Assembly: GCF_019059575.1 (NCBI RefSeq) | Contig: NW_024881693.1 | Span: 1 to 64,000 of the forward strand | Direction of reading: 5' to 3' | Length of the DNA: 64,000 bases | DNA from: Amphibalanus amphitrite | Lineage: Eukaryota; Arthropoda; Thecostraca; Balanomorpha; Balanidae | In this document: piece by piece, positions 24-63,929 of the stretch | How the letters are laid out: each line of letters starts with the position of its first letter | How positions within the stretch are numbered: position 1 is the first letter of the stretch | The notes under the pieces: model-generated | Seen by the model: only the letters and a program-made list of their open reading frames with translations | What the model was told of the DNA's origin: nothing | Databases searched by the model: none | Program-made: the position numbers and the translations under genes

Positions 24-227
24 GTACAGTGATCATCCTTCAACTGAACGGGGAATGGCACTAAACTAGATCGGGGCACCTGTTAAAATATCGACGTTAC
101 AAACTCGATTACGCTTATATCCAATGTCGGTCCATTAAAAAGAGCTACTGAAGAAGACAGGTATAAAGATGAGCCTGTTCCTACTAAGTTTGAAAGCTGT
201 CTGACCATGTGTTCGCCTCGTACACAG

Positions 228-753: not shown

Positions 754-1028
754 GTCAGTAGAGGAGAGTGAACCGAAGGCAGGGTAGCGCAAGGGTTGGG
801 AATGTCACGGAAGGAAATTGGTCCTATCATGGAAGGATAGGCTGCATCTTATTTGGCGATAGCACTAAGAAAACGACAACTTATCGAATCAAACCGTTCA
901 GCATTCTCCGTCTTCCGCTCAACGGGTTGGACGCTTAGACCATCATTCAGAGGTCTCCGTTCTGTAGTTACGAAAATTTAAATGTAACCATTACCACCCC
1001 TACGTGACGGCCCTCTTCCTTCCATCAG

Positions 1029-1291: not shown

Positions 1292-1529
1292 GTGAGTGCC
1301 GAAAGCTGGTATGCTCGGTGGTATACAGCGTAAAATAGTATCAGGAGATGGCGAATGAGCTCCGGAAGGTAGGCTTTTCGGTTGTGTTTTAATATCCATT
1401 TAGATGGAATATAACTATTGGCGGCCGGCCTAGGGGCGTAGCCGGCCTAGCCGCCGGCTACGCCATCACACCAAAAGCGATCGAAGCACGATACGAGCCA
1501 GGTAGTAACTTGTAATAAACCGTCCACAG

Positions 1530-1718
1530 GGCAACACGCTACAAGCTGACCTACGACGGTATGTGGCGACTGGACATCCCCAAAACTCGTCAGTACGACC
1601 ACGGCAAGATCGAGGTCGTCGCCCGCAACTCTGCCGGCGAGGCCTACTGCTCCTGCGAGATCAACATCAACGCTCGGCAGGACGACTACCGTGCCGTCCT
1701 CAAGAACTCGCCGAAACG
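1530..1718 (+). CDS. sls: Kettin Ig domain B, second half, and start of linker
   Basis: It starts after CCACAG and ends before GTGAGT at 1719. It encodes TRYKLTYDGMWRLDIPKTRQ, YDHGKIEVVARNSAGEAYCS and then the linker DDYRAVLKNSPK. Kettin repeats read NGTRYKLTYDG here, so the first codons (GGCAACACG) appear to hold one extra base. The F-strand Cys position is Val (KIEVVARN). The linker continues in the next coding exon as PWYDYDL. Confidence 0.85.
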
Positions 1719-3520: not shown

Positions 3521-3679
3521 GCGCCAGGCCGTGCACCGATCTTCACCCGTAAGATGCAGCCGAGCCGGGCTTTCGAGACGAACGGGGCCCGGTTCGACGT
3601 GGACTTTGTGGGCGTGCCACCGCCCGAGATCACGTGGTTCCGAGAGGACTTCCCGATCACGCCCAGCCACGACTTCAAG
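3521..3679 (+). CDS. sls: Ig domain C, first half
   Basis: It runs from CTTCCAG to AAG|GTAAGT. It encodes APIFTRKMQPSRAFETNGAR, then FDVDFVGVPPPEITWFREDF. The C-strand Trp is present (ITWFRED). The B-strand Cys is replaced (RFDVDF), so the classic disulfide cannot form. The IFTRKM start recurs in domain G as RFTRKM. Confidence 0.85.
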
Positions 3680-3849
3680 GTAAGTTGGTCGAAATATGGA
3701 TTGTGTATCGCCACATTCATATGCCATCTGTGATCTGGCACTAGTCACAATGAGCAAAGGCGAACATGCAAGCAATTATCTATGCAGTAATGAACAATGA
3801 ATATGCTACGATGTCATCTCACACTTTGCTGTCTTCGTCGTCCCCGCAG

Positions 3850-4122
3850 GTCACCACCACCGGTCGGCACTCGACGCTCGAGATCCGGGAGGTGTACAGC
3901 GAGGACTCGGGTCAGTTCTCGTGCGTGGCCTCTAACGAGCACGGCCAGGTGCGCTGCTCCGCAAACCTGGTGGTGGAGGAACGTCCACTGCCGCACGGTG
4001 TCCAGGTGCCGCCCAACTTCACCCAGACCCCGCGCGACGTGCAGCTCTGGCCCGGCACCAAGGTTGTCACGTTCGAGGCCAAGCTGGCCGGAACGAAACC
4101 GGTCGACGTCTACTGGCTGAAG
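3850..4122 (+). CDS. sls: Ig domain C second half plus Ig domain D first half
   Basis: It runs from CCCGCAG to AAG|GTGAGA. The first part, STLEIREVYSEDSGQFSCVA, completes domain C with the F-strand DSGQFSC. After the linker VEERPLPHGV it begins domain D with PPNFTQTPRDVQLWPGTKVV and a C-strand VYWLK. Domain D has Glu-Ala at the usual B-strand Cys site (VTFEAKL). The exon joins two domains without an intron between them. Confidence 0.85.
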
Positions 4123-4367
4123 GTGAGAGAGAAAATTGGCAGATTAGTGGAAGGTTGAAACGATTATGAAAGGTAGATGAACAAATACATTTATGAGAGT
4201 AATCTGAAAACCTTAGAAGAAACTAGAAAGACACATAATATAAATGAGCGATGAGACGTAAACAAAAGGAGATTGAAATGTCGGTAAGGATTAGAATCGC
4301 ATCTCTGTCAGCTTCTCGCAATTTCCACCCTTCCTTTTGACACCACATTGCCCTCCCGTCTGTTCAG

Positions 4368-12502: not shown

Positions 12503-12765
12503 CTCTGGAGTGTTAGGTAGGTAGATATGTCCTTTCAATTAAAGATGGTGCCTAGAAGTGCTCATGAACAGTTCAAAATGAGCCAGTAGTTTTAGTACAG
12601 TAGGAAATGTACCAAACGGCATTCGCTGAAAGCTGGAACACGATGTTCCAGTATCACGTAGATTTTGCTGTTCCGCTGTTGAGTGTCGGGGAGCATGGTC
12701 ATCTAAAAGAACGCACCCTGCAGTAGATCCTACTGACATTTATGCGTTGTCTGATGCATTTTCAG

Positions 12766-15700: not shown

Positions 15701-17374
15701 AACTGACGAAGAAATCACACAGAAAACGATGAGGCTGCTGTCAAGAAACCAAAACAAAGGCAAACTGAAGTTGTTCTGCAGAAACCAGAGGAACAGCAAG
15801 CGGCTGTACCTCCCAACACAGAGGCCAAGGATCATCCTGAGGACGTAAAATTAAAAAAGAGACCAGCGCCAGTAAAATTACAGGAGCCAGAGGAAGTTCC
15901 TTGGGCACATCCCAAGCTGAAACCTTCCGCACGGAAGGATTATGAGCCTGAACATGTGACAATGGAAGACGTTAGTCTAAAGAAGCTTCCGGAACAAGAG
16001 GAAGCTGAAATACCGACTGAGGAAAAGGAACAGAAGATCATAGAAGTAGAGCCATTCGCACCAACTGATGTGCCTACGCATGACGACGTTGAACTTGATG
16101 AGCTTGAATTGGATATGCCCGATCAGCCAAAGAAAGACAAAACTCCCAAGACTTTAAAGAAAGCTCCAAAAGCTGAAGGTCCCAAAAAGCAAAAGGATAA
16201 GTCTCCAGAGAAAGGAAGGTGGGTAAGAGGGGCAGAAACCGGACCAGGAGACACCTGAAGACGAGGAAGGTCTGAGAATCGGAAAAGGGAAACTTCCTGA
16301 AGATGATAAGCCTTTAGAATATAGGCTTAAGCCTGGTAAGCCTGGACCTCGTGGCGAAGAGCCACAAGAAGAAATAACCCTTAAGCCATTTGCTAAAGCA
16401 CCAGCAGACGAAACACCAAAAGAGGCAGATGGTCAAATAAAGCCAGATTACGTTCCAACACTGCCTGAAAGAGAGCCAGTAGAGCTTCAACCGTATGACA
16501 AGACTCCCAAAGATACAGACACACAGAAGGAGGATCTTCCAGAAACAGAAGAGAAGCCAGTGCCAAAAGACAAGGAAGATATTCCAAGCGAGGTTCCAAC
16601 GGAACCCGAAAAGCTTGGTGAAGAGTCACCGAAACCAAAGGATGGAAGAGAGACGGGTGCCATTCCCAAGGTTCGACGAGCTAAGCCGACCCAAAGGGCG
16701 ACCGAAGAGGACGTCAGTGAGGTCTTCAGAAACATGGACAACCGAAGACTTTGAAATTGTTTCCAAGGAAGCCGTTGAAGTCGATTCAACAATGGAGAAA
16801 CCTGTGAGAAAACGATCAGAAAAAGAAAGTAAAGCCTCGTAAAATGAGGCCTGAAAGCCAAGAAAAGCCCGATCAACAAGAAAAGCCTGAGAGTGTTACT
16901 ACTGAGGAAGTTTTCACTCATGAAATGGAAGAAAAGGATGAATTCGAGGAGGTAATTGAATACAGTGCTGAAGATGTTCCTGATCAGGGAGATGTTCAAG
17001 TGGAAGAAGTCCCAGGCGAAGATGTTCCAACTGAGAAGCCGAAGACAAAGAAAAGTCGCATGGTATTCTTCCCAGCCCTGGCGCACAGAAAATCAAGCCT
17101 CCTCGCTTTACTAGAAAGATGCAGCCCGTGGTCGCTAACAGAGGCGATGTTGTTACCTTTGAGGTAGAGTTTGAGGGCAATCCGGCGCCTACGGTATCGT
17201 GGTTCCTGAATAATGTTGACTTGAAAACGACTAAGCATACTACGAGCTGGAGCACCGAGTCCACAGCTGTGCTCGAGATCACCAAGGTGACGCGCAAGCA
17301 CGTCGGACACTACACCTGCAAAGTGACCAATCCCGGAGGCTCGGCCACATCAACGGCTAGCCTGGTGGTACAAG
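12766..17374 (+). CDS. sls: PEVK-like exon ending in Ig domain G
   Basis: It runs from TTTTCAG to CAAG|GTAGAT, 4.6 kb. In order it has: a Lys/Pro-rich start (EQKPVLPETKEG); an acidic stretch VEDDDDWSDTMSVSS; three RRxS motifs (RRYS, RRGS, RRPS, 13213-13316); a Pro/Gln/Trp repeat (13430-14085); then PWA...LKP modules such as VPWARAKEQLRTAEKPEKK, PPWARRKAELKP, PVPWARENVQLKP and EVPWAHPKLKP. It ends in Ig domain G, RFTRKMQPVVANRGDVVTFE ... HVGHYTCKVTNPGG. About 13 one-base frame changes (near 13905, 14650, 14757, 14900, 14962, 15165, 15275, 15510, 15730, 16225, 16735, 16815, 17060) interrupt it. The motifs continue across each, and the end phase fits the next exon. I infer consensus errors, but a decaying exon is not excluded. 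Confidence 0.78.
13430..14085 (+). repeat. Pro-Trp-Gln-Gln tandem repeat
   Basis: In-frame tandem repeat with core PWQQQPQQPQQ, about 15 to 20 copies varying between 8 and 14 residues. DNA units share CAACAACCGTGGCAACAGC. One base is missing near 13905, which shifts the frame in the middle of the array. Such slippage-prone DNA is also a plausible site of assembly error. A Trp every 8-14 residues in a Gln/Pro chain is unusual for a titin PEVK segment. Confidence 0.85.
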
Positions 17375-18087
17375 GTAGATTGCATCTCTCAGTTCTGCTG
17401 ATTTCGTTTTCTGTTTTCCTTTTTCGTTTGTTTGTTAAATAAAGCATGCTTGCGTGTGTTTACTCACATGTTCTTGTCGTTTCAGGCAAGCGACAACATT
17501 ACGATTATTTTATGCCAACGTGATTGAGTCGTGACATTTTCATTGATCCCGCTTTATTTCTTTCAGTTTCTAGTGTCATTTACTTTAATGAGTCTTAACG
17601 ATATCTTAGCAATTGTGATGTGTGTTAATAAAATATAACTAATCATTTTTTTTTCGCCAAGTTTTCTCCGTTTTGATGTTTTGCCAAGGATACCAATGCA
17701 TCAAGCAAAATGTTAATAACCGCTTCAGTGTTTGAAACGTGTCTTTACTTAACAATAATTTAACATAATGAAACCTCGTGACATAACATTAACATAACAT
17801 TAACAATCATGAATCATAAAATTAACAACGCAATGATCTGTAATGTCGAAAAATGCCAGTGCAAATTGTATCGCACTTAGGCTGAGTAAGCCAGCTAAAT
17901 AAGGATACGCTTAGGTATGTATATAAATATGAGGAACTTCAAAGACGATTTTCACATTGCCCCATATCTTTTGTCATTTGAAAATGCTGACCATTTTATC
18001 AGTAACATTGCATAACAATGATTGTTGCAACGTGCAATTAAAAACAAAAAAAGACCAAGCTGACCCTGTTTTCACCAATTTTTGCAG
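17375..18087 (+). other. Intron, 713 bases
   Basis: AT-rich intron between Ig domains G and H. It holds repeated ATAACATTAACATAAC near 17763-17805 and an AATAAA at 17438-17443 followed by GTGTGTT. The reading frame of Ig domain G stays open to 17442. No exon is seen in it. Confidence 0.65.
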
Positions 18088-18609: not shown

Positions 18610-18783
18610 GTTCGTTCATTACAGCTGTAATGGCTTGCTCTTGACCCAAAGATGTGATGAATGTTCAAGCCTTTGTTTTCACCTTTAGATGCATCCATCC
18701 GCGATAATATCTATGGACCAATATTTTTTCAAAGAGCTAATACATGTTTAAGAAAGTCGACAACCGTGAACCTTTTGCCACAG

Positions 18784-20198
18784 GAACCGATTTGGAGAGT
18801 CTGCCCGAGGGTAGCCAGCCGCCAGCGCTGGTGGTTCCCCTTCGAGCGGTGGTCGCCAGGCCGGGAGCCGATGTCACCTACCACACGGCCTTCGAGGGCC
18901 TGCCGCCACCGGTCATCACCTGGTTCCACAACGGCAAGCCTGTCGACGAGACCGAGGGCTACACGGTGATCACTGACGACCGCGAGTCGCGACTGGTGCT
19001 GTCCCGCGCCTCCACTCCCGATGAGGGTGTCGTTGAGGTGGTGGCAACAAACGCGGTGGTGAGGCGCGGTCACGTGCCACGCTGGTCGTTTCGCCAGAGC
19101 TGCCTGACGAGGCGGAGCTGCAAGCTCCCAGTTTCGTGCGTCCAGTCCGACCCAGCATGTCCCGCTAGGAGAAACAGTGGTCATGAGGCAGAGGTGACCG
19201 CAAAGCCTGAGGTCACCTTCACTTGGATGCGTGATAACAAGAGGCTGAAGAACACCAAGAACATTCACATTACCAGTGACGGCAACAAAACTGTGCTCGT
19301 TATTAGTGAGATGCGACCGAAGGATGTTGGAGAGTACACATGTGTTGCAGAGAATGAGGCAGGCATGACGTCCTCAGCGGCGTCCATCCAGCCGCGATCT
19401 TCGCCGGAGAAGGCGCCTCGTGAGCCTTCTGTCACCCAGCCAGCCCCAGAGCAGCCGTCCGAGACTAGCGTGGGAGCTGATCGATCCAGCCCAGTCTCCG
19501 TGACCAAATCCGAGTCCCAAGAGCAGGTGGTGCCAGACGAAAAGACGGCGCCAGAAGAGACTCCGAAGAAAACGCCAAAGAAGGCGCATAAGAAGAAGCC
19601 AGAGATATCCGAAGAAAAGCCTGAAGAAAGACCTGAAGAAGCACCTGAAGAGGTGCCAGACAAGCCAGCGGCTCCTAAAAAGGAGCCGGTACCTGAGGAG
19701 CAGGTTCCGACTGAGGAACTTCCTGAAGAGGAGGAAGCACCTTCCGACTTGCCGAAGGTAACGAGCCTAACACCGGTTATCAAGCTGATGGACGGCGAAG
19801 AGCTCAAGGTGTCCTGTAAGATCGTCTCGCCCACTCCGACCCGCGTCGCCTGGTTGCACGAAGGCCAGCCGATGGACGAGCACCGTGACGTAGAGGTGAC
19901 CATGTCGCCCGACGGCGTGTGCACGCTCTACATCAGCGAGGTGTACCCGGAGGACGCCGGCACCTTCACCTGCCGCGTCACCAACGCCGTCGGTCCCGGC
20001 GAGGCCACGTCTCACGTCAGCGTCGAGCCGTACGAGTACGTGCAGGACTCGGAGATCGCCTCAATGACGGTGGGCACCCTGCTCAGCGTGGACGACCACA
20101 GTGAGGAGGACCTGCTGGACGCACCCGATGAACTCGGACCGCGCTTCGTGCGCCGGCTGCCGCGAACGACCAGTGTGCCGGAAGGCAGCCCCATCACG
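18784..20198 (+). CDS. sls: Ig domains I, J and K with PEVK-like spacer
   Basis: It runs from GCCACAG to CACG|GTGAGT (donor GT at 20199). Domain I: PALVVPLRAVVARPGADVTY ... VITWFHNGKP ... GVVEVVATN, no core Cys. Domain J: QAPSFVRPVRPS ... VTFTWMRDNKRLKNTKN ... DVGEYTCVAENEAG. Between J and K is a Lys/Glu/Pro spacer (19390-19755; KKTPKKAHKKKPEISEEKPE). Domain K: PKVTSLTPVIKLMDGEELKV ... VAWLHEGQPM ... DAGTFTCRVTNAVG. It ends at the A strand of domain L (FVRRLPRTTSVPEGSP). At least three one-base changes lie within 19045-19190 at the I/J boundary; the frame is restored after them. Confidence 0.84.
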
Positions 20199-20510
20199 TG
20201 AGTAACGCAAAGAACGAAAATTGTTTTCAATTAAGGAAGCTTTATCGAGCTGTTCAAAAAGTAATCTACTGCAGTCCAGGAAAAGAGATAATTTAAGAAA
20301 TACGGTCAATGTATTCTAATGGGGAACTTCCTGAGGCCACAATCAATGCCAAGCATAGCGAGTGGCGCAGATTTTGACAAAAGGGCGAGATCAGGATAGT
20401 TCAGCCTGACTTGTTGATTGTTGATCTACTTATGCTGCATGCTCCCGACGCACACGCGGCATGTATTACCAGGGCCACCACTGAAATCCTACTCCCGCTC
20501 TGGACGGCAG
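20199..20510 (+). other. Intron, 312 bases
   Basis: Intron inside Ig domain L. It opens GTGAGTAACG and closes GGACGGCAG. Nothing else is recognised. Confidence 0.7.
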
Positions 20511-26038: not shown

Positions 26039-28981
26039 TCGGAGGCAGGTCAAAGGCCGAGCGGCGCAGGTGGAAGTCAGACGAATGAGGATCTTCCAAG
26101 TTGGACCAGTGTGCGACTGAAGCCCACCCAGCCCGACTCTCAGTCAGCGCCAGAAGACAGCGCAGATGTACAGCTAAGGCCGGTCTCGCCACAAGAGTCG
26201 CACCCACCAGTCGATGGTGATGACATTATTCTTAGGCCCGTTCCAGAGAAGGAGACAGAACTCCCTCACAAGGACCAGGTTAAGTTGAAGCAAGTACATT
26301 TCAAGGGACTAGATATGTTGGAAGAAGGAGAAGACATTGACTTGAGATCAGTCCCGGCTAAGGAAATTGAGGTGCCTCATAAAGACCAAGTGCAGTTGAA
26401 ACAAGTTCACTCCAAAGAGCTGACAACACTTGAAGAAGGAGAAGATATACAACTGAAGTCAGCATCGGAAACACAGCCCCAGATTCCACATAAGGGACAA
26501 GTGACGCTGAAACCAGTACCTCCAAAGGAGCCAAAGCGATTGGAAGACGCCGAGAGCATCCGTCTTAAGCCCGTTCCTCTAAAACACGTGGACCCCCAAG
26601 ATGGACCGGAAAACATTGAGCTTAAGACAGTTATGCAAAGAGAAATTGAAGTGCCACACAAAGAACAGATCAAGCTGAAACCAATCCCACCAAAGCCTGC
26701 AAAACCATTGAAGAAAAGGAGAGTGTCAAGTTAAAGCCGGTTCCCCTGAAGCAGTCAAAGGTAACGGACAAAGAGGCCCACAAATTGAAACCGATAGCTC
26801 AACAACAACAACCATCAGTACCACATAAGCAACAGACATCGCTGAAACCAATCCCACCCAAGGAACCAAAAGCAAAGCCAGAGAGAGAAAGTGTTAAGCT
26901 CAAACCAGTACCTAAGAAGGCTGCAGCTCAGAAAGGTGAATCTGAACTCAACGCAAAAACTCAAGCATCACCTGAGCAAAGAAGGCTCCAAGATCTAGAG
27001 CTGGAGATAAGCGAGGAAGACGGGATCCCGAAAACCGAGCCAAAACAGCAAATGGATGACAGTGAAAAACGGTTGGAAGATGTGGCGGACCAAGAGGTTG
27101 GTATGGAACAAACAGGTGATGTATCTCTGAACCTCACACCAAACAAGGAGCCAGACGACGTCCAGGTGGATCAAGATGATGTGTTAAAGCCGATTCCACC
27201 CAAACCTACAGAGGATGAAACAGACAGGGAGGAGGCCGCACCTAAATCTGTACCACCAAAGGAGGTTGAAATTCCTCAGGAAGAGCAGGTTTCTCTCAAA
27301 CACGTCCCAGGCAAATTACCAAAGGAGACACTGGATAAGGAAGAAGTACAGCTGAAACCTATTCCACCAAAGCCTGAGAAAGAAAAGGAAGCTATAGAAG
27401 AAGTGAAACTAAAGCCTGTACCACCAAAGGAAGTCGAGCTTCCTCACAAGGAGCAGGTGTCTCTCAAGCCGGTTCCTGGCAAAGTACCACAAGAGGCTGA
27501 AGAAAAGGAAGAAGTACACTTGAAACCAATTCCACCGAAGCATGAAAAAGAAAAGGAAACTAAAGAGGAAGTAAATTTAAAACCTGTACCACCAAAGGAA
27601 GTCAAGATCCCTCACAAGGAGCAGGTGTCTCTCAAGCCGGTTCCTGGCAAAGTACCACAAGAAGCTGAAGAAAAGGAAAAAGTCCACTTGAAACCAATTC
27701 CACCACCGAAGCTCGAGAAAGAAAAGGAAACTAAAGAGGAAGTAAAACTAAAACCTGTACCACCAAAGGAAGTCGAGCTTCCCCACAAGGAGCAGGTGTC
27801 TCTCAAGCCGGTTCCTGGCAAAGTACCACAAGAGGCTGAAGAAAAGGAAGAAGTACACTTAAACCAACTCCACCGAAGCCTGAAAAAGAAAAGGAAACTA
27901 AAGAGACAGTAAAACTAAAACCTGTACCAACAAAGGAAGTCGAGATCCCTCACAAGGAGCAGGTGTCTCTCAAGCCGGTTCCTGTCAAAGTACCACAAGA
28001 GGCTGAAGAAAAGGAAGAAGTACAACTGAAACCAATTCCACCGAAGCCTGAAAAAGAAAAGGAAACTAAAGAGGAAGTGAAACTAAAGCCTGTACCACCA
28101 AAGGAAGTAGAGATCCCTCACAAGGAGCAGGTGTCTCTCAAACCTGTCCCAGGCAAAGTACCAAAGGAGCCTCAACAAAAGGAAGAAGTACACCTGAAAC
28201 CAATTCCGCCGAAGCCTGAGAAAGAAAAGGAAACTAAAGAGGAAGTAAAACTAAAACCTTTACCACAAAAGGAAGTCGAGATCCCTCACAAGGAGCAGGT
28301 GTCTCTCAAACCTGTGCCAGGCAAAGTACCAAAGGAGACTGAAGAAAAGGAACAAGTACAACTGAAACCAATTCCAGCAAAACCCGAGAAAGAAAAGGGA
28401 ACTAATGAGGAAGTAAAACTAAAAGCTGTACCACCAAAGGAAGTCGAGATCCCTCACAAGGAGCAGGTGTCTCTCAAACCTGTCCCAGGCAAAGTACCAA
28501 AGGAGGCTGAAGAAAAGGAAGAAGTACAACTGAAACCCATTCCGCCAAAACCTGAGAAAGAAAAGGAAACTAGACAGGAAGCAAAACTAAAGCCTGTACC
28601 ACCAAAGGAAGTCGAGATCCCTCACAAGGAGCAGGTTTCTCTCAAACCTGTCCCAGGCAAAGTACCAAAGGAGACTGAGGACAGGGAAGAAGTACACCTG
28701 AAACCAGCTCCACCGAAACCTAAGAAAGAAAAGGAAACTAAAGAGGAGATAAAACTGAAGCCCGTCCCAACAAAAAAGCCCAAGGAGTCGGAAGAGAAGA
28801 AACAAGTTCAAATGAATGCAGTTCAAGAGACAAGTACTCCCTCAACGGGAGATCAATCAAGCGAACCCCCAAATAAAAAAGGGACCAAGAAGAAAACAAA
28901 GCCAAAGGAAGCTCAAGAAACACAAGAGGTTATCGTCGAGGAACTCATTGAATCCATAAAGGGGAAGAAGCCCATATGGAG
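26039..28981 (+). CDS. sls: PEVK-like exon of LKPVP repeats
   Basis: It starts after TTCACAG with SEAGQRPSGAGGSQTNEDLP and then SWTSVRLKPTQP, a variant of the PEW module. It continues as a Lys/Glu/Pro/Val chain: diverged units to about 27270, then nine 56-residue units with the pattern VEIPHKEQVSLKPVPGKVPK ... EEVHLKPIPPKPEKEKETKE. One base seems missing near 26715 and another near 27860, each followed at once by the same motif in the next frame. The end is uncertain. GAG|GTATCC at 28982 has a phase that does not fit the next exon. GAG|GTTATC at 28929 fits in phase 0 but is a weaker donor. Confidence 0.82.
27280..28740 (+). repeat. 168-base (56-residue) tandem repeat
   Basis: GAGCAGGTGTCTCTCAA recurs at about 27457, 27625, 27796, 27963, 28131, 28299, 28467 and 28635, with an earlier copy near 27290. 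The period is 168 bases. Copies are near-identical over long stretches, which points to recent tandem duplication or gene conversion. Confidence 0.9.
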
Positions 28982-46393: not shown

Positions 46394-49300
46394 GCACCGG
46401 ATCAGCTGGAGCTTACACGACTGTTGGATAAAGATATACCAGGTGTCACCGAAGTTAGTGAGCAAATCACTGCCGATGTTGAAAGGAATGGCGATGAGAA
46501 AGTCGAGACCATCACGACTACAAAGATAATCAAACGAAAGAAGCCGAAAGACGGCACAGAAACTACGGAAGAAATCCTTCCAGAAATTCCGGAGAAAGCC
46601 GAGCCCACTACGACTGTTGAGGAGACACCTGACCACGTCGAGGTAACTGAGGTTACAACGACAAAGGACATCCAGGAAGGTCCTGATGACCAGCTCATCA
46701 CAGTTGTCACCAAGACAAAGAAAACTCGCAAACCGAAGGAAAGGGCGCCGAAGGAGAAGCCAAAGAAAAAACGGCCATCCAAAACTCGACTGGATCAACA
46801 GCTTGAGGAAATCCCGGGAGTCACCGAAATAAGTGAACATACCTCTACTGATGTAGAACGGAATGATGATGAGAAAGTTGAGACCGTCACGACTACAAAG
46901 AAAATCAAGCGGAAGAAGCCTAAAGACGGCACCGAAACTACGGAAGAAATCCTTCCAGAAATTCCAGAGAAAGCCGAGCCCATTACGACAGTTGAGGAGA
47001 CGCCTGAGAACGTCGAGGTAACTGAAGTCACAACGACAAAGGAAATCCAGGAAGGTCCTGATGACCAGCTCATCACAGTGATCACCAAGACAAAGAAAAC
47101 TCGCAAACCGAAGGAAAGGGCGCCGAAGGAGAAGCCAAAGAAAAAACGGCCAACCAAAACTCGACTGGATCAACAGATTGAGGAAATCCCGGGAGTCACC
47201 GAAATAAGTGAACATACCTCTACTGATGTTGAACGGAATGATGATGAGGAAGTTGAGACCGTCACGACTACAAGGAAAATCAAACGGAAGAAGCCTACAG
47301 ACGGCACCGAAACTACGGAAGAAATCCTTCCAGAAATTCCAAAGAAAGCCGAACCCACTACGACTGTTGAGGAGACGCCTGAGCACGTCGAGGTAACTGA
47401 AGTCACAACGACAAAGGACATCCAGGAAGGTCCTGATGACCAGCTCATTACAGTTGTCACCAAGACAAAGAAAACTCGCAAACCGAAGGAAAAGGCGCCA
47501 AAAGAGGAGCCAAAGCGGAAACAGCCAACTAAAACTACGCTGGATGAACAGATTGTGAAAATCCCAGGCGTCACCGAGGTTGGTGAGCAAACTACTACTG
47601 GAATTGAAACCATTGATGACGAAGAGGTTGAGACAATGACCACTACAAAGAAAATCAAAATAAAGAAGCCTAAAGACGGCACCGAAACCACGGAAGAAAT
47701 CCTTCCAGAAATTCCAGAGAAAGCCGAGCCCACTACGAATGTCGAGGAGACGCCTGAGCACGTCGAGGTAACTGAAGTCACAACGACAAAGGACATCCAG
47801 GAAGGTCCTGATGACCAGTTCATCACAGTTGACACCAAGACAAAGAAAACTCGCAAACCGAAGGAAAAAGCACCGAAGGAGAAGCCAAAGAAGAAACAGC
47901 CATCCAAAACTCGACTGGATCAACAGATTGAGGAAATCCCGGGGGTCACCGAAATAAGTGAACATACCTCTACTGATGTGCAAGGGAATGATGATGAGGA
48001 AGTTGAGACCGTCACGACTACAAAGAAAATCAAACGTAAGAAGCCTAAAGACGGCACCGAAATTACGGAAGAAATCCTTCCAGAAATTCCAGAGAAAGCC
48101 GAACCCATTACGACAGTTGAGGAAACGCCTGAGCACGTCGAGGTAACTGAAGTCACAACGACAAAGGACATCCAGGAAGGTCCTGATGACCAGCTCATCA
48201 CAGTTGTCACCAAGACAAAGAAAACTCGCAAACCGAAGGAAAAGAAGCCGAAGGAGAAACCAAAGCGGAAACGGCCAACTAAAACTACGCTGGATGAACA
48301 GATTGAGAAAATCCCAGGCGTCACCGAGGTTGGTGAGCAAACTACTACTGGAACTGAAACCATTGATGACGATGAAGTTGAGACAATGACCACTACAAAG
48401 AAAATCAAAATAAAGAAGCCTAAAGACGGCACCGAAACCACGGAAGAAATCCTTCCACAAATTCCAGAGAAAGCCGAGCCCACTACGAATGTCGAGGAGA
48501 CGCCTGAGCACGTCGAGGTAACTGAAGTCACAACGACAAAGGACATCCAGGAAGGTCCTGATGACCAGTTCATCACAGTTGACACCAAGACAAAGAAAAC
48601 TCGCAAACAGAAGGAAAAAGCACCGAAGGAGAAGCCAAAGAAGAAACAGCCATCCAAAACTCGACTGGATCAACAGATTGAGGAAATCCCGGGGGTCACC
48701 GAAATAAGTGAACATACCTCTACTGATGTGCAAGGGAATGATGATGAGGAAGTTGAGACCGTCACGACTACAAAGAAAATCAAACGTAAGAAGCCTAAAG
48801 ACGGCACCGAAATTACGGAAGAAATCCTTCCAGAAATTCCAGAGAAAGCCGAACCCATTACGACAGTTGAGGAAACGCCTGAGCACGTCGAGGTAACTGA
48901 AGTCACAACGACAAAGGACATCCAGGAAGGTCCTGATGACCAGCTCATCACAGTTGTCACCAAGACAAAGAAAACTCGCAAACCGAAGGAAAAGAAGCCG
49001 AAGGAGAAACCAAAGCGGAAACGGCCAACTAAAACTACGCTGGATGAACAGATTGAGAAAATCCCAGGCGTCACCGAGGTTGGTGAGCAAACTACTACTG
49101 AAATTGAAACCATTGATGACGAAGAAGTTGAGACAATGACGACTACAAAGAAAATCAAAATAAAGAAGCCTACAGACGGCACCGAAACTACGGAAGAAAT
49201 CCTTCCAGAAATCCCGCAGAAAGCCGAACCCACTACGACTGTTGAGGAGACGCCTGACCTCGTCGAGGTAACTGAAGTAACAACGACAAAAGATATCCAG

Positions 49301-52300
49301 GAAGGTCCTGATGACCAGCTCATCACAGTGATCACCAAGACAAAGAAAACTCGCAAACCGAAGGAAAAAGCACCGAAGGAGAAGCCAAAAAAGACACAGC
49401 CATCCAAAACTCGATTGGATCAACAGATTGAGGAAATCCCGGGAGTCATCGAAATAAGTGAACATACCTCTACTGATGTGGAACAGAATGATGATAAGGA
49501 AGTTGAGACCGTCACGACTACAAAGAAAATCAAACGGAAGAAGCCTAAAGACGGCACCGAAGTTACGGAAGAAATCCTTCCAGAAATTCCAGAGAAAGCC
49601 GAGCCCATTACGTCAGTTGAGGAGACGCCTGAGGACGTCGAGGTAACTGAAGTCACAACGACAAAGGACATCCAGGAAGGCCCTGAAGACCAGCTCATCA
49701 CAGTTGTCACCAAGACAAAGAAAACTCGCAAACCAAAAGTAAAGGCGCCAAAGGAGAAGCCGAAGCGGAAACGGACAACTAAAACTACGCTGGATGAACA
49801 GATTGAGAAAATCCCAGGCGTCACCGAGGTTGCTGAGCAAACTACTACTGAAATTGAAACCATTGACGACGAAGAAGTTGAGACAATGACGACTACAAAG
49901 AAAATCAAAATAAAGAAGCCTAAAGACGGCACCAAAACCACGGAAGAAATTTTCCCAGAAATACCGGAGAAAGCCGAGCCCACTACAACTGTTGAGGAGA
50001 CGCCTGAGCACGTCGAGGTAACTGAGGTTACAACGACAAAGGACATCCAGGAAGGTCTTGATGACCAGCTCATCACAGTGATCACCAAGACAAAGAAAAG
50101 TCGCAAACCGAAGGAAAAAGCACCGAAGGAAAAGCCAAAGAAGACACGGCCATCCAAAACTCGACTGGATCAACACATTGAGGAAATCCCGGGAGTCACC
50201 GAAATAAGTGAACATACCTCTACTGATGTGGAACGGAATGATGATGAGGAAGTTGAGACCGTCACGACTAAAAAGAAAATCAAACGGAAGAAGCCTAAAG
50301 ACGGCACCGAAATTACGGAAGAAATCCTTCCAGAAATTCCACAGAAAGCCGAGCCCATTACGACAGTTGAGGAGACGCCTGAGGACGTCGAGGTAACTGA
50401 AGTCACAACGGCAAAGGACATCCAGGAAGGTCCTGATGACCAGCTCATCACAGTTGTCACCAAGACAAAGAAAACTCGCAAACCGAAGGAAAAGAAGCCG
50501 AAGGAGAAGCCAAAGAAGAAACGGCCATGCAAAACACGACTGGATGAACAGATTGAGGAAATCCCGGGAGTCACCGAAATAAGTGAACAAACCTCTACTG
50601 AGGTTGAACGGAATGATGATGAGGAAGTTGAGACCGTCACGTCTACAAAGAAAATCAAACGGAAGAAGCCCACCGACGGCACCGAAACTACGGAAGAAAT
50701 CCTTCCAGAAATTCCGAAGAAAGCCGAGCCCATTACGACAGTTGAGGAGACGCCTGAGCACATTGAGGTATCTGAAGTCACAACGACAAAGGACATCCAG
50801 GAAGGTCCTGATGACCAACTCATCACAGTTGTCACCAAGACAAAGAAAACTCGCAAACCGAAGGAAGAGGCGCCAAAGGAGAAGCCAAAGCGGAAACGGC
50901 CAACTAAAACTACGCTGGATGAACAGATTGAAAGAATTCCAGGCGTCACCGAGGTTGGTGAGCAAACTACTACTGAAATTGAAACCATTGATGACGAAGA
51001 GGTTGAGACAATGACGACTACAAAGAAAATCAAAATAAAGAAGCCTACAGACGGCACCGAAACTACGAAAGAAATCCTTCCAGAAATTTCGCAGAAAGCC
51101 GAACCCACTACGACTGTTGAGGAGACGCCTGACCTCGTCGAGGTAACTGAAGTCACAACGACAAAGGCCATCCAGGAAGGTCCTGATGACCAGCTCATCA
51201 CAGTGATCACCAAGACAAAGAAAACTCGCAAACCGAAGGAAAAGGCACCGAAGGAGAAGCCAAAGAAAAAACGGCCATCCAAAACTCGACTGGATCAACA
51301 GATTGAGGAAATCCCAGGCGTCACCGAGGTTGGTGAGCAAACTTCTACTGAAATTGAAACCATTGATGACGAAGAAGTTGAGAAAATAACCACTACAAAG
51401 AAAATCAAACGAAAGAAGCCGAAGGACGGAATCGAAACTTCGGAAGACATCCTTCCAGAAATTCCAGAGAAAGCCGAGCCCACTACGAATGTTGAGGAGA
51501 CGCCTGAGCACGTCGAGGTAACTGAAGTCACAACGACAAAGGACATCCAGGAAGGTCCTGATGACCAGCTCATCACAGTTGTCACCAGGACAAAGAAAAC
51601 TCGCAAACCGAAGGAAAAGGCGCCAAAAGAGAAGCCGAAGAAGAAACGGCCATCCAAAACTCGACTGGATCAACAGATTGAGGAAATCCCGGGAGTCACC
51701 GAAATAAGTGAACATACCTCTACTGATGTGGAACGGAATGATGATGAGGAAGTTGAGACCGTCACGACTACAAAGAAAATCAAACGGAAGAAGCCTAAAG
51801 ACGGCACCGAAATTACGGAAGAAATCCTTCCAGAAATTCCAGAGAAAGCCGAGCCCATTACGACAGTTGAGGAGACGCCTGAGGACGTCGAGGTAACTGA
51901 AGTCACAACTACAAAGGACATCCAGGAAGGTCCTGATGACCAACTCATCACAGTTGTCACCAAGACAAAGAAAACTCGCAAACCGAAGGAAAAGGCGCCA
52001 AAGGAGAAGCCGAAGCGGAAACGGCCAACTAAAACTACGCTGGATGAACAGATTGAGAAAATCCCAGGCGTCACCGAGGTTGGTGAGCAAACTACTACTG
52101 AAATTGAAACCATTGATGACGAAGAAGTTGAGACAATGACGACTACAAAGAAAATCAAAATAAAGAAGCCTAAAGACGGCACCGAAACCATGGAAGAAAT
52201 CCTTCCAGAAATACCGGAGAAAGCCGAGCCAACAACAACTGTTGAGGAGACACCTGAGCACGTCGAGGTAACTGAGGTTACAACGACAAAGGACATCCAG

Positions 52301-55300
52301 GAAGGTTTTGATGACCAGCTCATCACAGTCGTCACCAAGACAAAGAAAACTCGCAAACCGAAGGAAAAGACGCCAAAGAAGATGCCAAAGGAGAAACGGC
52401 CAACTGGAACTACACTGGATGAACAGGTTAAGGAAATCCCAGGTGTCACCGAAGTAGCTGAGCAAACCACTACTGAAGTTGAAACCATTGATGACAAACA
52501 AGTTGAAACAATCACGACTACAAAGAAAATCAAACGAAAGAAGCCTGAGGACGGAACCGAAACTTCGGAAGAAATTCTTCCAGAAATTCCAGAGAATGCC
52601 GAGCCCACTACGAATGTTGAGGAGACGCCTGAGAACGTCGAGGTAACTGAAGTCACAACTACAAAGGACATCCAGGAAGGTCCTGATGACCAACTCATCA
52701 CAGTTGTCACCAAGACAAAGAAAACTCGCAAACCGAAGGAAAAGGCGCCAAAGGAGAAGCCGAAGCGGAAACGGCCAACTAAAACTACGCTGGATGAACA
52801 GATTGAGGAAATCCCGGGAGTCACCGAAATAAGTGAACATACCTCTACTGATGTTGAACGGAATGATGATGAGGAAGTTGAGACCGTCACGACTACAAAG
52901 AAAATCAAACGGAAGAAGCCTACAGACGGCACCGAAACTACGGAAGAAATCCTTCCAGAAATTCCGCAGAAAGCCGAACCCACTACGACTGTTGAGGAAA
53001 CGCCTGACCTCGTCGAGGAAACTGAAGTAACAACGACAAAGGATATCCAGGAGGGTCCTGATGACCAGCTCATCACAGTGATCACCAAGACAAAGAAAAC
53101 TCGCAAACCGAAGGAAAAAGCACCGAAGGAAAAGCCAAAGAAGACACGGCCATCCAAAACTCGACTGGATCAACACATTGAGGAAATCCCGGGAGTCACC
53201 GAAATAAGTGAACATACCTCTACTGATGTGGAACGGAATGATGATGAGGAAGTTGAGACTGTCACGTCTACAAAGAAAATCAAACGGAAGAAGCCCACCG
53301 ACGGCACCGAAACTACGGAAGAAATCCTTCCAGAAATTCCGAAGAAAGCCGAGCCCATTACGACAGTTGAGGAGACGCCTGAGCACATTGAGGTATCTGA
53401 AGTCACAACGACAAAGGACATCCAGGAAGGTCCTGATGACCAGCTCATCACAGTTGTCACCAAGACAAAGAATACTCGCAAACCGAAGGAAAAGAAGCCG
53501 AAGGAGAAGCCAAAGAAGAAACGGCCATGCAAAACACGACTGGATGAACAGATTGAGGAAATCCCGGGAGTCACCGAAATAAGTGAACAAACCTCTACTG
53601 AGGTTGAACGGAATGATGATGAGGAAGTTGAGACCGTCACGTCTACAAAGAAAATCAAACGGAAGAAGCCCACCGACGGCACCGAAACTACGGAAGAAAT
53701 CCTTCCAGAAATTCCGAAGAAAGCCGAGCCCATTACGACAGTTGAGGAGACGCCTGAGGACGTCGAGGTAACTGAAGTCACAACGACAAAGGACATCCAG
53801 GAAGGTCCTGATGACCAGCTCATCACAGTTGTCACCAAGACAAAGAAAACTCGCAAACCGAAGGAAAAGGCGCCAAAGGAGAAGCCAAAGCGGAAACGGC
53901 CAACTAAAACTACGCTGGATGAACAGATTGAGAAAATCCCAGGCGTCACCGAGTTTGGTGAGCAAACTACTACTGAAATTGAAACCATTGATGACGAGGA
54001 AGTTGAGACAATGACGACTACAAAGAAAATCAAAATAAAGAAGCCTACAGACGTCACCGAAACTACGGAAGAAATACTTCCAGAAATTCCGCAGAAAGCC
54101 GAACCAACTACGACTGTTCAGGAGACGCCTGACCTCGTCGAGGTAACTGAAGTAACAACGACAAAGGATATCCAGGAAGGTCCTGATGACCAGCTGATCA
54201 CAGTGATCACCAAGACAAAGAAAACTCGCAAACCGAAGGAAAAAGCACCGAAGGAGAAGCCAAAGAAGAAACGGCCATCCAAAACTCGACTGGATCAACA
54301 GATTGAGGAAATCCCGGGAGTCACCGAAATAAGTGAACATACCTCTACTGATGTGGAACGGAATGATAATGAGGAAGTTGAGACCGTCACGACTACAAAG
54401 AAAATCAAACGGAAGAAGCCTACAGACGTCACCGAAACTACGGAAGAAATCCTTCCAGAAATTCCGCAGAAAGCCGAACCAACTACGACTGTTCAGGAGA
54501 CGCCTGACCTCGTCGAGGTAACTGAAGTAACAACGACAAAGGATATCCAGGAAGGTCCTGATGACCAGCTGATCACAGTGATCACCAAGACAAAGAAAAC
54601 TCGCAAACCGAAGGAAAAGACGCCAAAGAAGATGCCAAAGGAGAAACGGCCAACTGGAACTACACTGGATGAACAGGTTAAGGAAATCCCAGGTGTCACC
54701 GAAGTAGCTGAGCAAACCACTACTGAAGTTGAAACCATTGATGACGAACAAGTTGAAACAATCACGACTACAAAGAAAATCAAACGAAAGAAGCCTGAGG
54801 ACGGAACCGAAACTTCGGAAGAAATTCTTCCAAAAATTCCAGAGAAAGCCGAGCCCACTACGAATGTTGAGGAGACGCCTGAGAACGTCGAGGTAACTGA
54901 AGTCACAACTACAAAGGACATCCAGGAAGGTCCTGATGACCAACTCATCACAGTTGTCACCAAGACAAAGAAAACTCGCAAACCGAAGGAAAAGGCGCCA
55001 AAGGAGAAGCCAAAGCGGAAACGGCCAACTAAAACTACGATGGATGAACAGATTGAGAGAATTCCAGGCGTCACCGAGGTTGGTGAGCAAACTACTACTG
55101 AAATTGAAACCATTGATGACGAAGAGGTTGAGACAATGACGACTACAAAGAAAATCAAACGGAAGAAGCCTAAAGACGGCACCGAAATTACGGAAGAAAT
55201 CCTTCCAGAAATTCCAGAGAAAGCCGAACCCATTACGACAGTTGAGGAGACGCCTGAGGACGTCGAGGTAACTGAAGTCACAACGACAAAGGACATCCAG

Positions 55301-58300
55301 GAAGGTCCTGATGACCAGCTCATCACAGTTGTCACCAAGACAAAGAAAACTCGCAAACCGAAGGAAAAGGCGCCAAAGGAGAAGCCAAAGCGGAAACGGC
55401 CAACTAAAACTCGACTGGATCAACAGATTGAGGAAATCCCGGGAGTCACCGAAATAAGTGAACATACCTCTACTGATGTGGAACGGAATGATGATGAGGA
55501 AGTTGAGACCGTCACGACTACAAAGAAAATCAAACGGAAGAAGCCTAAAGACGGCACCGAAATTACGGAAGAAATCCTTCCAGAAATTCCGAAGAAAGCC
55601 GAGCCCATTACGACAGTTGAGGAGACGCCTGAGGACGTCGAGGTAACTGAAGTCACAACGACAAAGGACATCCAGGAAGGTCCTGATGACCAGCTCATCA
55701 CAGTTGTCACCAAGACAAAGAAAACTTGCAAACCAAAGGAAAAGACGCCTAAGAAAAAACCAAAAAAGAAACGACCAACAACAACTACACTGGATGAACA
55801 TATTGAAAAAATCCCAGGCGTCACCGAAGTTGGTGAGCAAACCACTACTGAGGTTGAAACCATTGATGACGAACAAGTTGAAACAATCACGACTACAAAG
55901 AAAATCAAACGAAAGAAGCCTAAGGACGGAACCGAAACTTCGGAAGAAATCCTTTCAGAAATTCCAGGGAAAGCCGAGCCCACTACGAATGTTGAGGAGA
56001 CGCCTGAGAACGTCGAGGTAACTGAAGTCACAACTGCAGAGGACATCCAGGAAGGTCCTGATGACCAACTCATCACAGCTGTCACCAAGACAAAGAAAAC
56101 TCGCAAACCGAAGGAAGAGGCGCCAAAGGAGAAGCCAAAGCGGAAACGGCCAACTAAAACTACGATGGATGAACAGATTGAGAGAATTCCAGGCGTCACC
56201 GAGGTTGGTGAGCAAACTACTACTGAAATTGAAACCATTGATGACGAAGAGGTTGAGACAATGACGACTACAAAGAAAATCAAAATAAAGAAGCCTACAG
56301 ATGGCACCGAAACTACGGAAGAAATCCTTTCAGAAATTCCGCAGAAAGCCGAACCCACTACGACTGTTGAGGAGACGCCTGACCTCGTCGAGGTAACTGA
56401 AGTCACAACGACAAAGGACATCCAGGAAGGTCCTGATGACCAGCTCATCACAGTGATCACCAAGACAAAGAAAACTCGCAAACCAAAGGAAAAGGCACCG
56501 AAGGAGAAGCCAAAGAAGACACGGCCATCCAAAACTCGACTGGATCAACAGATTGAGGAAATCCCGGGAGTCACCGAAATAAGTGATCATACCTCTACTG
56601 ATGTGGAACGGAATGATGATGATGAAGTTGAGACCGTCACGTCTACAAAGAAAATCAAACGGAAGAAGCCCACCGACGGCACCGAAACTACGGAAGAAAT
56701 CCTTCCAGAAATTCCGAAGAAAGCCGAGCCCATTACGACAGTTGAGGAGACGCCTGAGCACATTGAGGTATCTGAAGTCACAACGACAAAGGACATCCAG
56801 GAAGGTCCTGATGACCAACTCATCACAGTTGTCACCAAGACAAAGAAAACTCGCAAACCGAAGGAAAAAAAGCCGATGGAGAAGCCAAAGAAGAAACGGC
56901 CATGCAAAACACGACTGGATGAACAGATTGAGGAAATCCCGGGAGTCACCGAAATAAGTGAACATACCTCTACTGAGGTTGAACGGAATGATGATGATGA
57001 AGTTGAGACCGTCACGTCTACAAAGAAAATCAAACGGAAGAAGCCCACCGACGGCACCGAAACTACGGAAGAAATCCTTCCGGAAATTCCGAAGAAAGCC
57101 GAGCCCATTACGACAGTTGAGGAGACGCCTGAGCACATTGAGGTATCTGAAGTCACAACGACAAAGGACATCCAGGAAGGTCCTGATGACCAACTCATCA
57201 CAGTTGTCACCAAGACAAAGAAAACTCGCAAACCGAAGGAAAAGACGCCAAAGAAGATGCCAAAGGAGAAACGGCCAACTGGAACTACACTGGATGAACA
57301 GGTTAAGGAAATCCCAGGTGCCACCGAAGTAGCTGAGCAAACCACTACTGAAGTTGAAACCATTGATGACGAACAAGTTGAAACAATCACGACTACAAAG
57401 AAAATCAAACGAAAGAAGCCTGAGGACGGAACCGAAACTACGGAAGAAATCCTTCCAGAAATTCCGAAGAAAGCCGAGCCCATTACGTCAGTTGAGGAGA
57501 CGCCTGAGGACGTCGAGGTAACTGAAGTCACAACTACAAAGGACATCCAGGAAGGTCCTGATGACCAACTCATCACAGTTGTCACCAAGACAAAGAAAAC
57601 TCGCAAACCGAAGGAAGAGGCGCCAAAGGAGAAGCCAAAGCGGAAACGGCCAACTAAAACTACGCTGGATGAACAGATTGAGAGAATTCCAGGCGTCACC
57701 GAGGTTGGTGAGCAAACTACTACTGAAATTGAAACCATTGATGACGAAGAGGTTGAGACAATGACGACTACAAAGAAAATCAAAATAAAGAAGCCTACAG
57801 ACGGCACCGAAACTACGGAAGAAATCCTTCCAGAAATTCCGCAGAAAGCCGAACCCACTACGACTGTTGAGGAGACGCCTGACCTCGTCGAGGTAACTGA
57901 AGTCACAACGACAAAGGACATCCAGGAAGGTCCTGATGACCAGCTCATCACAGTGATCACCAAGACAAAGAAAACTCGCAAACCAAAGGAAAAGGCACCG
58001 AAGGAGAAGCCAAAGAAGACACGGCCATCCAAAACTCGACTGGATCAACAGATTGAGGAAATCCCGGGAGTCACCGAAATAAGTGAACATACCTCTACTG
58101 ATGTGGAACGGAATGATGATGAGGAAGTTGAGACCGTCACGACTACAAAGAAAATCAAACGGAAGAAGCCTAAAGACGGCACCGAAATTACGGAAGAAAT
58201 CCTTCCAGAAATTCCAGAGAAAGCCGAGCCCATTACGACAGTTGAGGAGACGCCTGAGGACGTCGAGGTAACTGAAGTCACAACGACAAAGGACATCCAG

Positions 58301-59185
58301 GAAGGTCCTGGTGACCAGCTCATCACAGTTGTCACCAAGACAAAGAAAACTCGCAAACCGAAGGAAAAGAAGCCGAAGGAGAAGCCAAAGAAAAAACGGC
58401 CATCCAAAACTCGACTGGATGAACAGATTGAGAAAATCCCAGGCGTCACCGAGGTTGGTGAGCAAACTACTACTGAAATTGAAACCATTGATGACGAAGA
58501 AGTTGAGACAATAACCACTACAAAGAAAATCAAACGAAAGAAGCCGAAGGACGGAATCGAAACTTCGGAAGAAATCCTTCCAGAAATTCCAGAGAAAGCC
58601 GAGCCCACTACGAATGTAGAGGAGACGCCTGAGCACGTCGAGGTAGCTGAAGTTACAACGACAAAGGACATCCAGGAAGGTCCTGATGACCAGCTCATCA
58701 CAGTTGTCACCAAGACAAAGAAAACTCGCAAACTGAAAGAAAAAGCGCCGAAGGAGAAGCCAAAGAAGAAACGGCCATGCAAAACACGACTGGATCAACA
58801 GATTGAGGAAATCCCGGGAGTCACCGAAATAAGTGAACATACCTCTACTGATGTTGAACGGAATGATGATGAGGAAATCGAGACTGTCACGATTACAAAG
58901 AAAATCAAACGGAAGAAGCCTACAGACGGCACCGAAACTACGGAAGAAATCCTTCCAGAAATTCCGGAGAAAGCCGAACCCACTACGACTGTTGAGGAGA
59001 CGCCTGACCTCGTCGAGGTAACTGAGGTTACAACGACAAAGGACATCCAGGAAGGCCCTGATGAAGAGCTCATCACAGTCATCACCAAGACAAAGAAAAC
59101 TCGTAGATCAAAACGCATCACAAACGACGACAGACATGGGCCGCCTTCGCCTGATGGCACTCCTGACGTCTCTCCACATAACCAG
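46394..59185 (+). CDS. sls: Giant 12.8-kb exon, about 34 repeats of 125 residues
   Basis: It runs from TTTTTGCAG to CAG|GTGTTT, 4,264 codons with no stop or frame change. It starts APDQLELTRLLDKDIPGVTE. About 34 units of 375 bases follow, each reading roughly LDQQIEEIPGVTEISEHTST ... VETVTTTKKIKRKKPKDGTE ... EEILPEIPEKAEPTTTVEET ... VEVTEVTTTKDIQEGPDDQL ... TKTKKTRKPKEKAPKEKPKK. Two subtypes often alternate (ISEHTSTDVERN and VGEQTTTEIETIDD), giving a 250-residue higher-order period in part of the array. The units are clear relatives of those in the 7.9-kb exon. It is inferred to be the main elastic, PEVK-like chain. It ends with a short unique tail (RITNDDRHGPPSPDGTPDVS). Confidence 0.9.
46425..59110 (+). 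repeat. 375-base tandem array, about 34 copies
   Basis: ATCCTTCCAGAAATTCC-type codons for EEILPEIP recur every 375 bases from about 46560 to about 58935. The phase is unbroken across 12.7 kb. Length changes between units seem confined to whole multiples of three. Confidence 0.93.
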
Positions 59186-62616: not shown

Positions 62617-62875
62617 AGTCGCCCCAAAAGGCGTTATACTGGTTTGGTATTTTTCATATTTGATCTTTATTTGTTGCTGCCATTAAATCTATCAATGCAT
62701 CATTTCACTTACAGTGAAAAGTTTTACAACTCACTAAGCGCGATCAACGTTTCCATGCGTAATAACAAACATGCCACCAAGGTGGATTCAATGGCACCCA
62801 TATTGATACGTTTTTTCCCTGAATTAGTACCATATCCACTGGTTCTGTCAACTCATGTGTAAATTGCGCTTTCAG

Positions 62876-63235
62876 GACAAGGACAAAAAGCCGAAGAAGC
62901 CCAAGCGCGGACAACCATTGGATTCAGAAACTCCTGAGTGGATCGACTTCTCATTAAAACCGGTGAAACAGGTTCCCAAGGAGATAGACGAGGAAAAGCT
63001 GGAAACTGTGGAGCTGAAACCACTAAGTGATACAGAGGAGGACATCACTGACAAAGGCCGCATTGATAAAAAACCAGAACAGCCTGGAGAAGCGGACACG
63101 ATTCTCAAGAAAATCCCCGGTGATGATAAAGAGAAACCCGATAAAAAGCCAAAGAAGAAAAAGATCAAGAAGCTAAAAACACCGGACGACATGGCCAAAC
63201 CGGATGAAGAGGAATTGCCGTCAGGGGACGATGAG
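62876..63235 (+). CDS. sls: PEVK-like exon with PEW module
   Basis: It runs from CTTTCAG to GAG|GTTTGT, 120 codons, phase 0. It encodes DKDKKPKKPKRGQPLDSETP, EWIDFSLKPVKQVPKEIDEE, KLETVELKPLSDTEEDITDK and a Lys/Pro-rich end (KKPKKKKIKKLKTPDDMAKP). KLETVELKP echoes the KLETVQLKP modules of the 12.8-17.4 kb exon. Confidence 0.82.
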
Positions 63236-63482
63236 GTTTGTGCCGTTCATACTTATTTTAATGCGCTAGCATATCTTTATGTTGCACTGGATATTCAAAG
63301 AAGCTCAGGTTTGCCTCTTTGGATGCTAGTTTATTTAATATAAATAGTGCGTAATAAAACATGTACAGTAGTTATCTATGCTAGTTTAGCAACAGTACTC
63401 AGTAGGCTGTCCAATGTAATGAATTTAATCAAGGTCTCTGATACTTACATAGCTCACCGTTCATTTCGAATGAATATTTCAG

Positions 63483-63929
63483 GAGGTGCCGCAGCCAGCC
63501 GAGGTGACGGAAGTCCAGCCGGAGGAGCCGCTGCAGCCCGAGGACCACCTTCCAGAGTGGCAGCGTGTGAAGCTGAAGAAGGTGGAGGTGGAGCAGGAGG
63601 AGGACGCCATCACCTCCCTCATCATGACGCGACCCGATCGCATCCCCACCACCGAACTGCCCGACTTCAGCAAGAAGCCGCCGAAACCCGACATGGAGCA
63701 GACGGCGCCGGCGCCAACCGAGGAAGAAACTCTTGACGAGACCCCAAAGAAAAAGACCAAGAAGCCGAAGAAACAGAAAAAGCGACCAACGGAGGGTGAA
63801 CAACCAGAGGCGCCCACTGAGGCCGTCACTACCGAAGAACCCGCTCAAGACGAGGCACATTCAGATGAGGTTCCCGAAGAGAAGCCGACGCCTCTGAAAC
63901 AGCTACCAGACCAGACAACTTCAGACGAG
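63483..63929 (+). CDS. sls: PEVK-like exon with PEW module
   Basis: It runs from TTTCAG to GAG|GTTTGT, 149 codons, phase 0. It encodes EVPQPAEVTEVQPEEPLQPE, DHLPEWQRVKLKKVEVEQEE, DAITSLIMTRPDRIPTTELP and a Lys-rich part (KKKTKKPKKQKKRPTEGEQP). It is a clear duplicate in plan of the exon at 61071. The gene continues beyond the window, since no stop is used. Confidence 0.82.

Follow-up and report, generated by a model that had tools for sequence, protein, structure and literature searches.

The passive stiffness of muscle is set by titin-like springs, and sarcomere length varies widely among arthropod muscles. In titin, the folded domains of tandem immunoglobulin (Ig) chains are arranged in series and could be opened by force, and the PEVK region is an extensible, charged, and repetitive I-band segment encoded by many short exons. 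The arthropod titin gene is sallimus (also D-titin or I-connectin), whose short isoform is kettin. Crayfish I-connectin (work by Fukuzawa et al. in 2001) reportedly has 17,352 residues at full length and carries 68- and 71-residue repeats besides its PEVK part, which are charged, are neither Ig nor PEVK, and belong to the spring. Passages of one report describe the long PEVK parts of Drosophila Sls as an elastic spring that is not expressed in flight muscle (PMC9886281), and passages of another describe the PEVK region of mammalian titin as also prone to repeat expansion (PMC6469411). Here we analyse the first 64,000 nucleotides (the window) of contig C196 (NW_024881693.1) of Amphibalanus amphitrite, from an assembly of 807.6 Mb in 2,644 contigs. 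Judged from its exons, the locus is orthologous to sallimus and resembles it in its collinear kettin Ig exons, its PEVK regions, and its C-terminal Ig and Fn3 domains. It differs from the 13 sallimus proteins that we compared (all of 7,886 residues or fewer), none of which shows two giant exons of 125- and 133-residue Thr-rich units. The larger of these, here called the large array, is in our reading (probability about 0.6) a giant cassette exon of sallimus that encodes a spring segment of hairpins on charged linkers. The two arrays are as follows.

46394..59185, + strand: large array, an exon-like block of 4,264 codons in phase 0/0, with 34 units of 125 residues and a unique head and tail
46436..59122, + strand: repeat units proper of the large array, 33 of them full, the final one conserved for about 105 residues
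31981..39861, + strand: small array, 2,627 codons, 20 related units forming 10 dimers of about 258 residues each

The frame of the large array is open from 46364 to 59218 (4,284 codons). An acceptor (TTTTTGCAG, after which the exon begins with GC) and a donor (CCAG/GTGTTT, the slash marking the exon end) delimit a block of 12,792 nt, or 4,264 codons, with phase 0 at both ends. The open frame and these two signals reproduce exactly the coordinates and the unbroken frame given in an initial annotation of this DNA, and its proposal of a single exon fits the same two lines of sequence evidence, from which it is predicted. That annotation had also described about 34 near-identical units of 125 residues. 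The number and the length hold: 34 unit anchors were found, all 33 spacings between them were exactly 125 residues, and Tandem Repeats Finder reported a period of 375 with 33.8 copies and 0% indels; the last unit runs for about 105 conserved residues before the unique tail. The units are, however, similar rather than near-identical, since the mean pairwise identity is 0.833 in protein (range, 0.616 to 1.000) and 0.881 in DNA (0.723 to 1.000), and 33 of the 34 DNA units are distinct. Substitutions between units average 0.084 for nonsynonymous (dN) and 0.277 for synonymous (dS) sites, a ratio of 0.30 (527 pairs of the 33 full units), and this low dN relative to dS is a sign of purifying selection between the units of the large array. 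No clear regular higher-order period was seen inside the array in the window, where the similarity of units showed no clear dependence on distance.

The small array was absent from the initial annotation. Its unit lengths alternate between 125 (twice 124) and 133 residues, and its unit aligns with that of the large array over the full length, making them one unit family. The ratios of mean dN to mean dS for its two subunit types are 0.26 and 0.34 (based on 8 and 9 of their 10 units, respectively). The splice scan picked up its donor and missed its acceptor (CCAG at 31980) because the pyrimidine tract is weak. A hidden Markov model (HMM) of the units recovered 34 plus 20 copies across the window and no significant further copy elsewhere in it. 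In an alignment of 52 of the 54 units of both arrays, 13 residues are invariant: P2, G3, T27, I32, E56, E63, E72, T75, T92, T94, P109, K110, and D120.

The gene that bears the arrays is, on sequence matches, sallimus, as the initial annotation had proposed; kettin-type Ig exons and collinear C-terminal Ig/Fn3 matches bear out that assignment. The Ig exons upstream of the arrays that match other arthropod sallimus proteins are given here.

226..1716, + strand: kettin-type Ig exons that identify sallimus (226-360, 607-744, 1039-1291, in which the frame changes near 1150, and 1519-1716)
3524..4137, + strand: further collinear sallimus Ig exons (3524-3682 and 3847-4137)
18741..20201, + strand: Ig domains collinear with other arthropod sallimus

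A protein search with a conserved kettin segment near the start of the window matched 13 of 13 candidates, all from arthropods and most of them named titin or titin-like, the remainder being unnamed or hypothetical. Collinear tblastn matches to shrimp and krill proteins, and in part to a crayfish protein, extend from 226 to 20126. Over a block of 241 residues, identity is 72 to 74% to seven insects and one ostracod, 60 to 65% to krill, shrimp, and crayfish, and 49 and 55% to two chelicerates. Downstream, the C-terminal Ig/Fn3 part of crayfish protein P0014 matches C196 collinearly and on the same strand at 116.3 to 123.3 kb and at 124.8 to 133.4 kb, the second match reaching within three residues of the protein end. 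The collinear order of kettin part, PEVK/spring part, and C-terminal Ig plus Fn3 part was thus found on one strand. Because the kettin exons lie upstream and the Ig/Fn3 matches downstream, both arrays are placed by this order in the I-band spring region of sallimus. An IQ-TREE tree of sallimus segments put the window within the pancrustaceans, outside the sampled insects and outside the krill, shrimp, and crayfish group, with 49% support at the adjacent node; this placement is loose because some alignment rows are probably paralogous Ig segments (e.g., those of the ant Cyphomyrmex and of the crayfish in the last block).

An AlphaFold model of a two-unit segment, built with a 30-row alignment, had a mean predicted local distance difference test score (pLDDT) of 68.5 and a predicted template modeling score of 0.39. 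Strands were predicted in the first unit at residues 4 to 18, 21 to 35, 58 to 63, 67 to 81, and 85 to 100, and the pattern was repeated in the second unit. Ten-residue blocks containing strands scored pLDDT values of 69 to 85 in the first unit and 59 to 79 in the second, and the segment from 105 to 116 scored below 50. The layout suggested by the model is a beta-hairpin (4 to 35), a linker containing LPxIP, another hairpin to which a further short strand is added (58 to 100), and a disordered linker rich in Lys and Pro (101 to 116). Across the three unit types of the two arrays, identity is 0.61 to 0.62 in the predicted strand segments and 0.42 in the two linkers. When the strand ends set the registers, charges across hairpin 1 pair best at the modeled register. 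Pairing across hairpin 2, on the other hand, is negative at the nominal register and best one step off, and charge pairing therefore lends the hairpins little support. No structure in the PDB matched the unit well by sequence or by fold; matches to KRas and Lmo2241 were judged to reflect charged stretches or chance. A search for hairpin-like stretches in the other spring exons of the gene gave a best score of 12.3 bits, compared with 12.5 for reversed controls and 18.6 for shuffles, and no such stretch was accepted. As in titin tandem Ig chains, the large array would offer serial elements that force can open, but no Ig fold is predicted in it and no Pfam family matches it at an E value of 1 or below. 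NCBIfam gave no match either, in keeping with the initial annotation, which knew of no named domain with this pattern.

A second contig, C840, carries the same locus: along a 28.5-kb stretch on the 5' side the two contigs are 97.9% identical, and along a 17.5-kb stretch on the 3' side they are 98.0% identical. The large-array exon is open in both contigs and has the same splice sites, but it comprises 34 units (4,264 codons) in C196 and 27 units (3,389 codons) in C840, a difference of 875 residues or 7 units. The small array has 20 units in each contig (96.2% identity over 11.2 kb). A genome search with one unit, in which 124 candidates were scored, gave at least 101 matches at an E value of 0.001 or below, all of them in these arrays (34, 27, 20, and 20). 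A chance open frame, a pseudogene, or junk as the origin of the arrays is ruled out by the frames being open in both contigs and by dN being lower than dS between units. Large-array units are as alike between contigs (identity, 0.887) as within them (0.888 and 0.886). None of the 34 DNA units of C196 recurs exactly in C840, and the median best identity between contigs is 0.953, so neither contig was copied from the other. The best collinear pairing joins 21 units with a mean identity of 0.935, at least 0.97 in 2 of the 21, and leaves 13 of the 34 units of C196 and 6 of the 27 of C840 unpaired. In C840, units 6 to 11 and 12 to 17 are 98.9 to 100% alike, so by its sequence the large array there has undergone a recent six-unit duplication. 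Turnover appears to be faster in the large array than in its flanks, unlike in the small array with its constant number of units. The two contigs are likely haplotypes, since pairs of contigs also recur among several of the other Ig matches in the genome.

The proposed segment would be extensible and would span from the Z-disc-bound kettin part of the protein to the thick-filament-bound Ig/Fn3 end. Under a pull from both ends, the linkers would straighten first, as a charged entropic chain, and the hairpins would then unzip at low force and re-zip upon release. If the linkers straighten and the hairpins unzip unit by unit, the number of units would set the length of the spring. The chain length per residue is ~0.38 nm, at which 4,264 residues correspond to at most 1.6 micrometres and 875 residues to 0.33 micrometres. 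Because the exon is in phase 0 at both ends, splicing could include or skip the whole spring without damage to the frame, and unequal exchange could change the array length in steps of 375 bp. The elastic module suggested in the initial annotation is a plausible one in the spring region, elasticity itself being, like the splicing use and the unequal exchange, something that we infer. Beyond this, we tentatively entertain a third kind of arthropod titin spring besides Ig chains and PEVK, consisting of dozens of fixed-length two-hairpin units in a phase-0 cassette exon, with a unit number that differs between the haplotypes of one animal (34 and 27), so that spring length would be a heritable copy-number trait. 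With a cassette-exon array that turns over faster than its flanks and differs by 7 units between two contigs of one assembly, the length of the spring would become a genetic variable open to direct testing. Should the hairpins prove real, they would add a low-force element that opens stepwise to the repertoire of Ig domains and PEVK chain.

The predicted hairpins would be dispensable if the units were disordered and simply formed an entropic spring, as a polyampholyte similar to PEVK, the repeat being a by-product of amplification without a folded element. A charged-residue fraction of 0.42, few aromatic residues, and PEVK neighbours are what such a chain would have, and passages of PMC9886281 describe the PEVK part of sallimus as a flexible spring. 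We nevertheless consider it somewhat unlikely. The unit has a P+E+V+K content of 0.485 and a Thr content of 0.19; for the neighbouring PEVK repeat of 56 residues, the corresponding values are 0.73 (27918-28757) and 0.03. When Ala is counted, the PEVK ratio of the large-array exon is 0.501 and that of the 56-residue repeat is 0.754; the PEVK_Finder minimum, according to passages of PMC6469411, is 0.54, a threshold tuned on human and mouse titin, where sliding windows were used, and applied here per exon; the large-array exon falls below it. Mammalian PEVK subregions have means of 0.79 and 0.84 in the same passages, and, unlike their many short exons, the large array is one huge exon with predicted hairpins. 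In addition, strands of fair confidence are predicted in the unit and none in the 56-residue repeat, whose model lacked secondary structure (mean pLDDT, 55.8, from 8 alignment rows against 30 for the unit, so that the depths differ). The fixed period of 125 residues, free of indels across all 33 spacings, and the conservation of strand segments above that of the linkers also argue against disorder. The unit could instead be the module of the crayfish I-connectin repeats and hence already known. Both are charged, neither Ig nor PEVK, and part of the spring in the same gene, in the same kind of place, and the unit may have arisen by an old duplication, with halves of ~60 and ~65 residues: its half-against-half score was reached by 4, 7, and 28 of 1,000 shuffles for the three unit types, and its autocorrelation has weak bumps at lags 60 to 65. 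The periods, however, differ (125 and 133 residues against the reported 68 and 71), and we regard this identity as unlikely.

Repeat arrays are prone to collapse in assembly, and the difference between 34 and 27 units, together with part of the regularity, could have arisen from one locus assembled twice with tandem-repeat errors. In C196, a frame-tracking script found 10 frame switches across 4.3 kb in the first PEVK region and 2 across 3.0 kb in the second, i.e., 12 in 7.3 kb (12 and 2, or 14, when set most permissively). The 20.7 kb of arrays in this contig had no switch, which may mean uneven polishing; a control exon (21704-23557) had one switch at its very end (three at the most permissive setting). 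The PEVK frames of C840 are open for 1,606 residues in the first region and 902 in the other, and C840 also lacks the frame change near 1150, so the frame breaks of C196 are contig-specific errors or a damaged allele. The affected coding sequence is given here.

12700-17040 and 26050-29000: frame-switched PEVK coding of C196, together with the conserved Ig exon near 1150

Polishing may have been more thorough in the arrays than around them, and this could also have smoothed differences among units. Even so, an assembly origin is rather unlikely: both contigs keep the exon open between the same splice sites at a distance of exactly 7 units, 0 of 34 DNA units recur exactly with a median best identity of 0.953, and the small array has 20 units in each. 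We consider it very unlikely that the array serves as a ladder or ruler of regularly spaced binding sites for thin-filament, signaling, or chaperone partners, with LPxIP and LDxxIxxIPG as docking sites and elasticity secondary. Such a ladder would agree with the 13 residues invariant in 52 aligned units and with the regular spacing, but a ruler could hardly tolerate a difference of 7 units between contigs, and no named domain or solved relative hints at a partner, motif libraries lying outside the searches made. The hairpin-on-linker spring is our preferred reading of the large array.

Searches of other species and of named families were made with the same unit. A protein search over lengths of 2,345 to 7,462 residues gave nothing among the best 1,679 candidates by shared words, and one over 5,500 to 17,500 gave nothing among 2,448 candidates. 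HMMs of the unit, the half-unit, and the permuted unit scored no better on the 13 arthropod sallimus proteins than on reversed or shuffled sequences. That set includes three malacostracan proteins, of which one is known from a partial record, another is an isoform that stops shortly beyond the Ig block, and the third has little PEVK. Since no sallimus protein exceeded 7,886 residues even though 17,500 were allowed, these negatives in other species are weak. A short stretch with a PG motif near residue 6302 of a mosquito (Anopheles) protein resembled the unit by eye but was not significant. Searches of an open-licence library turned up no such unit, most subscription papers being outside that library. 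In the small array, Pfam reported CP12 (51.4 bits against a cut-off of 22.7, one stretch) and AsnC_trans_reg_3 (26.2 bits against 24.4, with no stretch reaching it alone), which exceed the cut-offs on whole-protein score, both judged to be composition artefacts of repeated weak matches.

The remaining features of the spring region in the window are as follows.

12630..17440, + strand: first region of PEVK type, which includes a Gln-rich PQQPWQQ repeat and has a complete Ig domain (17101-17370) at its end
27244..28757, + strand: 56-residue PEVK-type tandem repeat of the spring region (period 168), with a frame break near 27855 in C196
61056..61496, + strand: PEW-motif spring exon 3' of the large array, with a phase-0 donor, its start being that of the open frame with no acceptor mapped
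62873..63235, + strand: PEW-motif spring exon with a phase-0 donor and an approximate start
63474..63929, + strand: PEW-motif spring exon with a phase-0 donor and an approximate start

In the splice scan, the PEW exons came out without an acceptor and the exon of the 56-residue repeat without a donor, and Rfam gave no match in the window at gathering scores. The PQQPWQQ tandem repeat of the first PEVK region (13545-14037) is gluten-like in composition. An open block of 617 residues, acidic and Ser-rich, lies between Ig exons at 21704-23557 and has a YRKPDW motif near its start; sallimus proteins of insect, shrimp, and ostracod origin have YRKPEW or YKKPDW after their Ig domains. A 128-base tandem repeat in two copies is located between spring exons at 62316-62561. 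The intron between the arrays (39862-46393) contains stretches of ~80 to 345 bases with 84 to 91% inverted matches near 76.6 to 77.6 kb of the contig, which are likely a dispersed mobile element. Farther along C196, outside the window, there are two more giant open blocks that belong to the same gene region, one of 1,396 residues with WQRGKPKKKKPKRPEAP-type repeats (70337-74524) and one of 5,399 residues in which acidic and Thr/Ser repeats are abundant (86007-102203). In the sallimus region downstream of the window, an open frame at 108460-110493 resembles part of a reverse transcriptase by eye.

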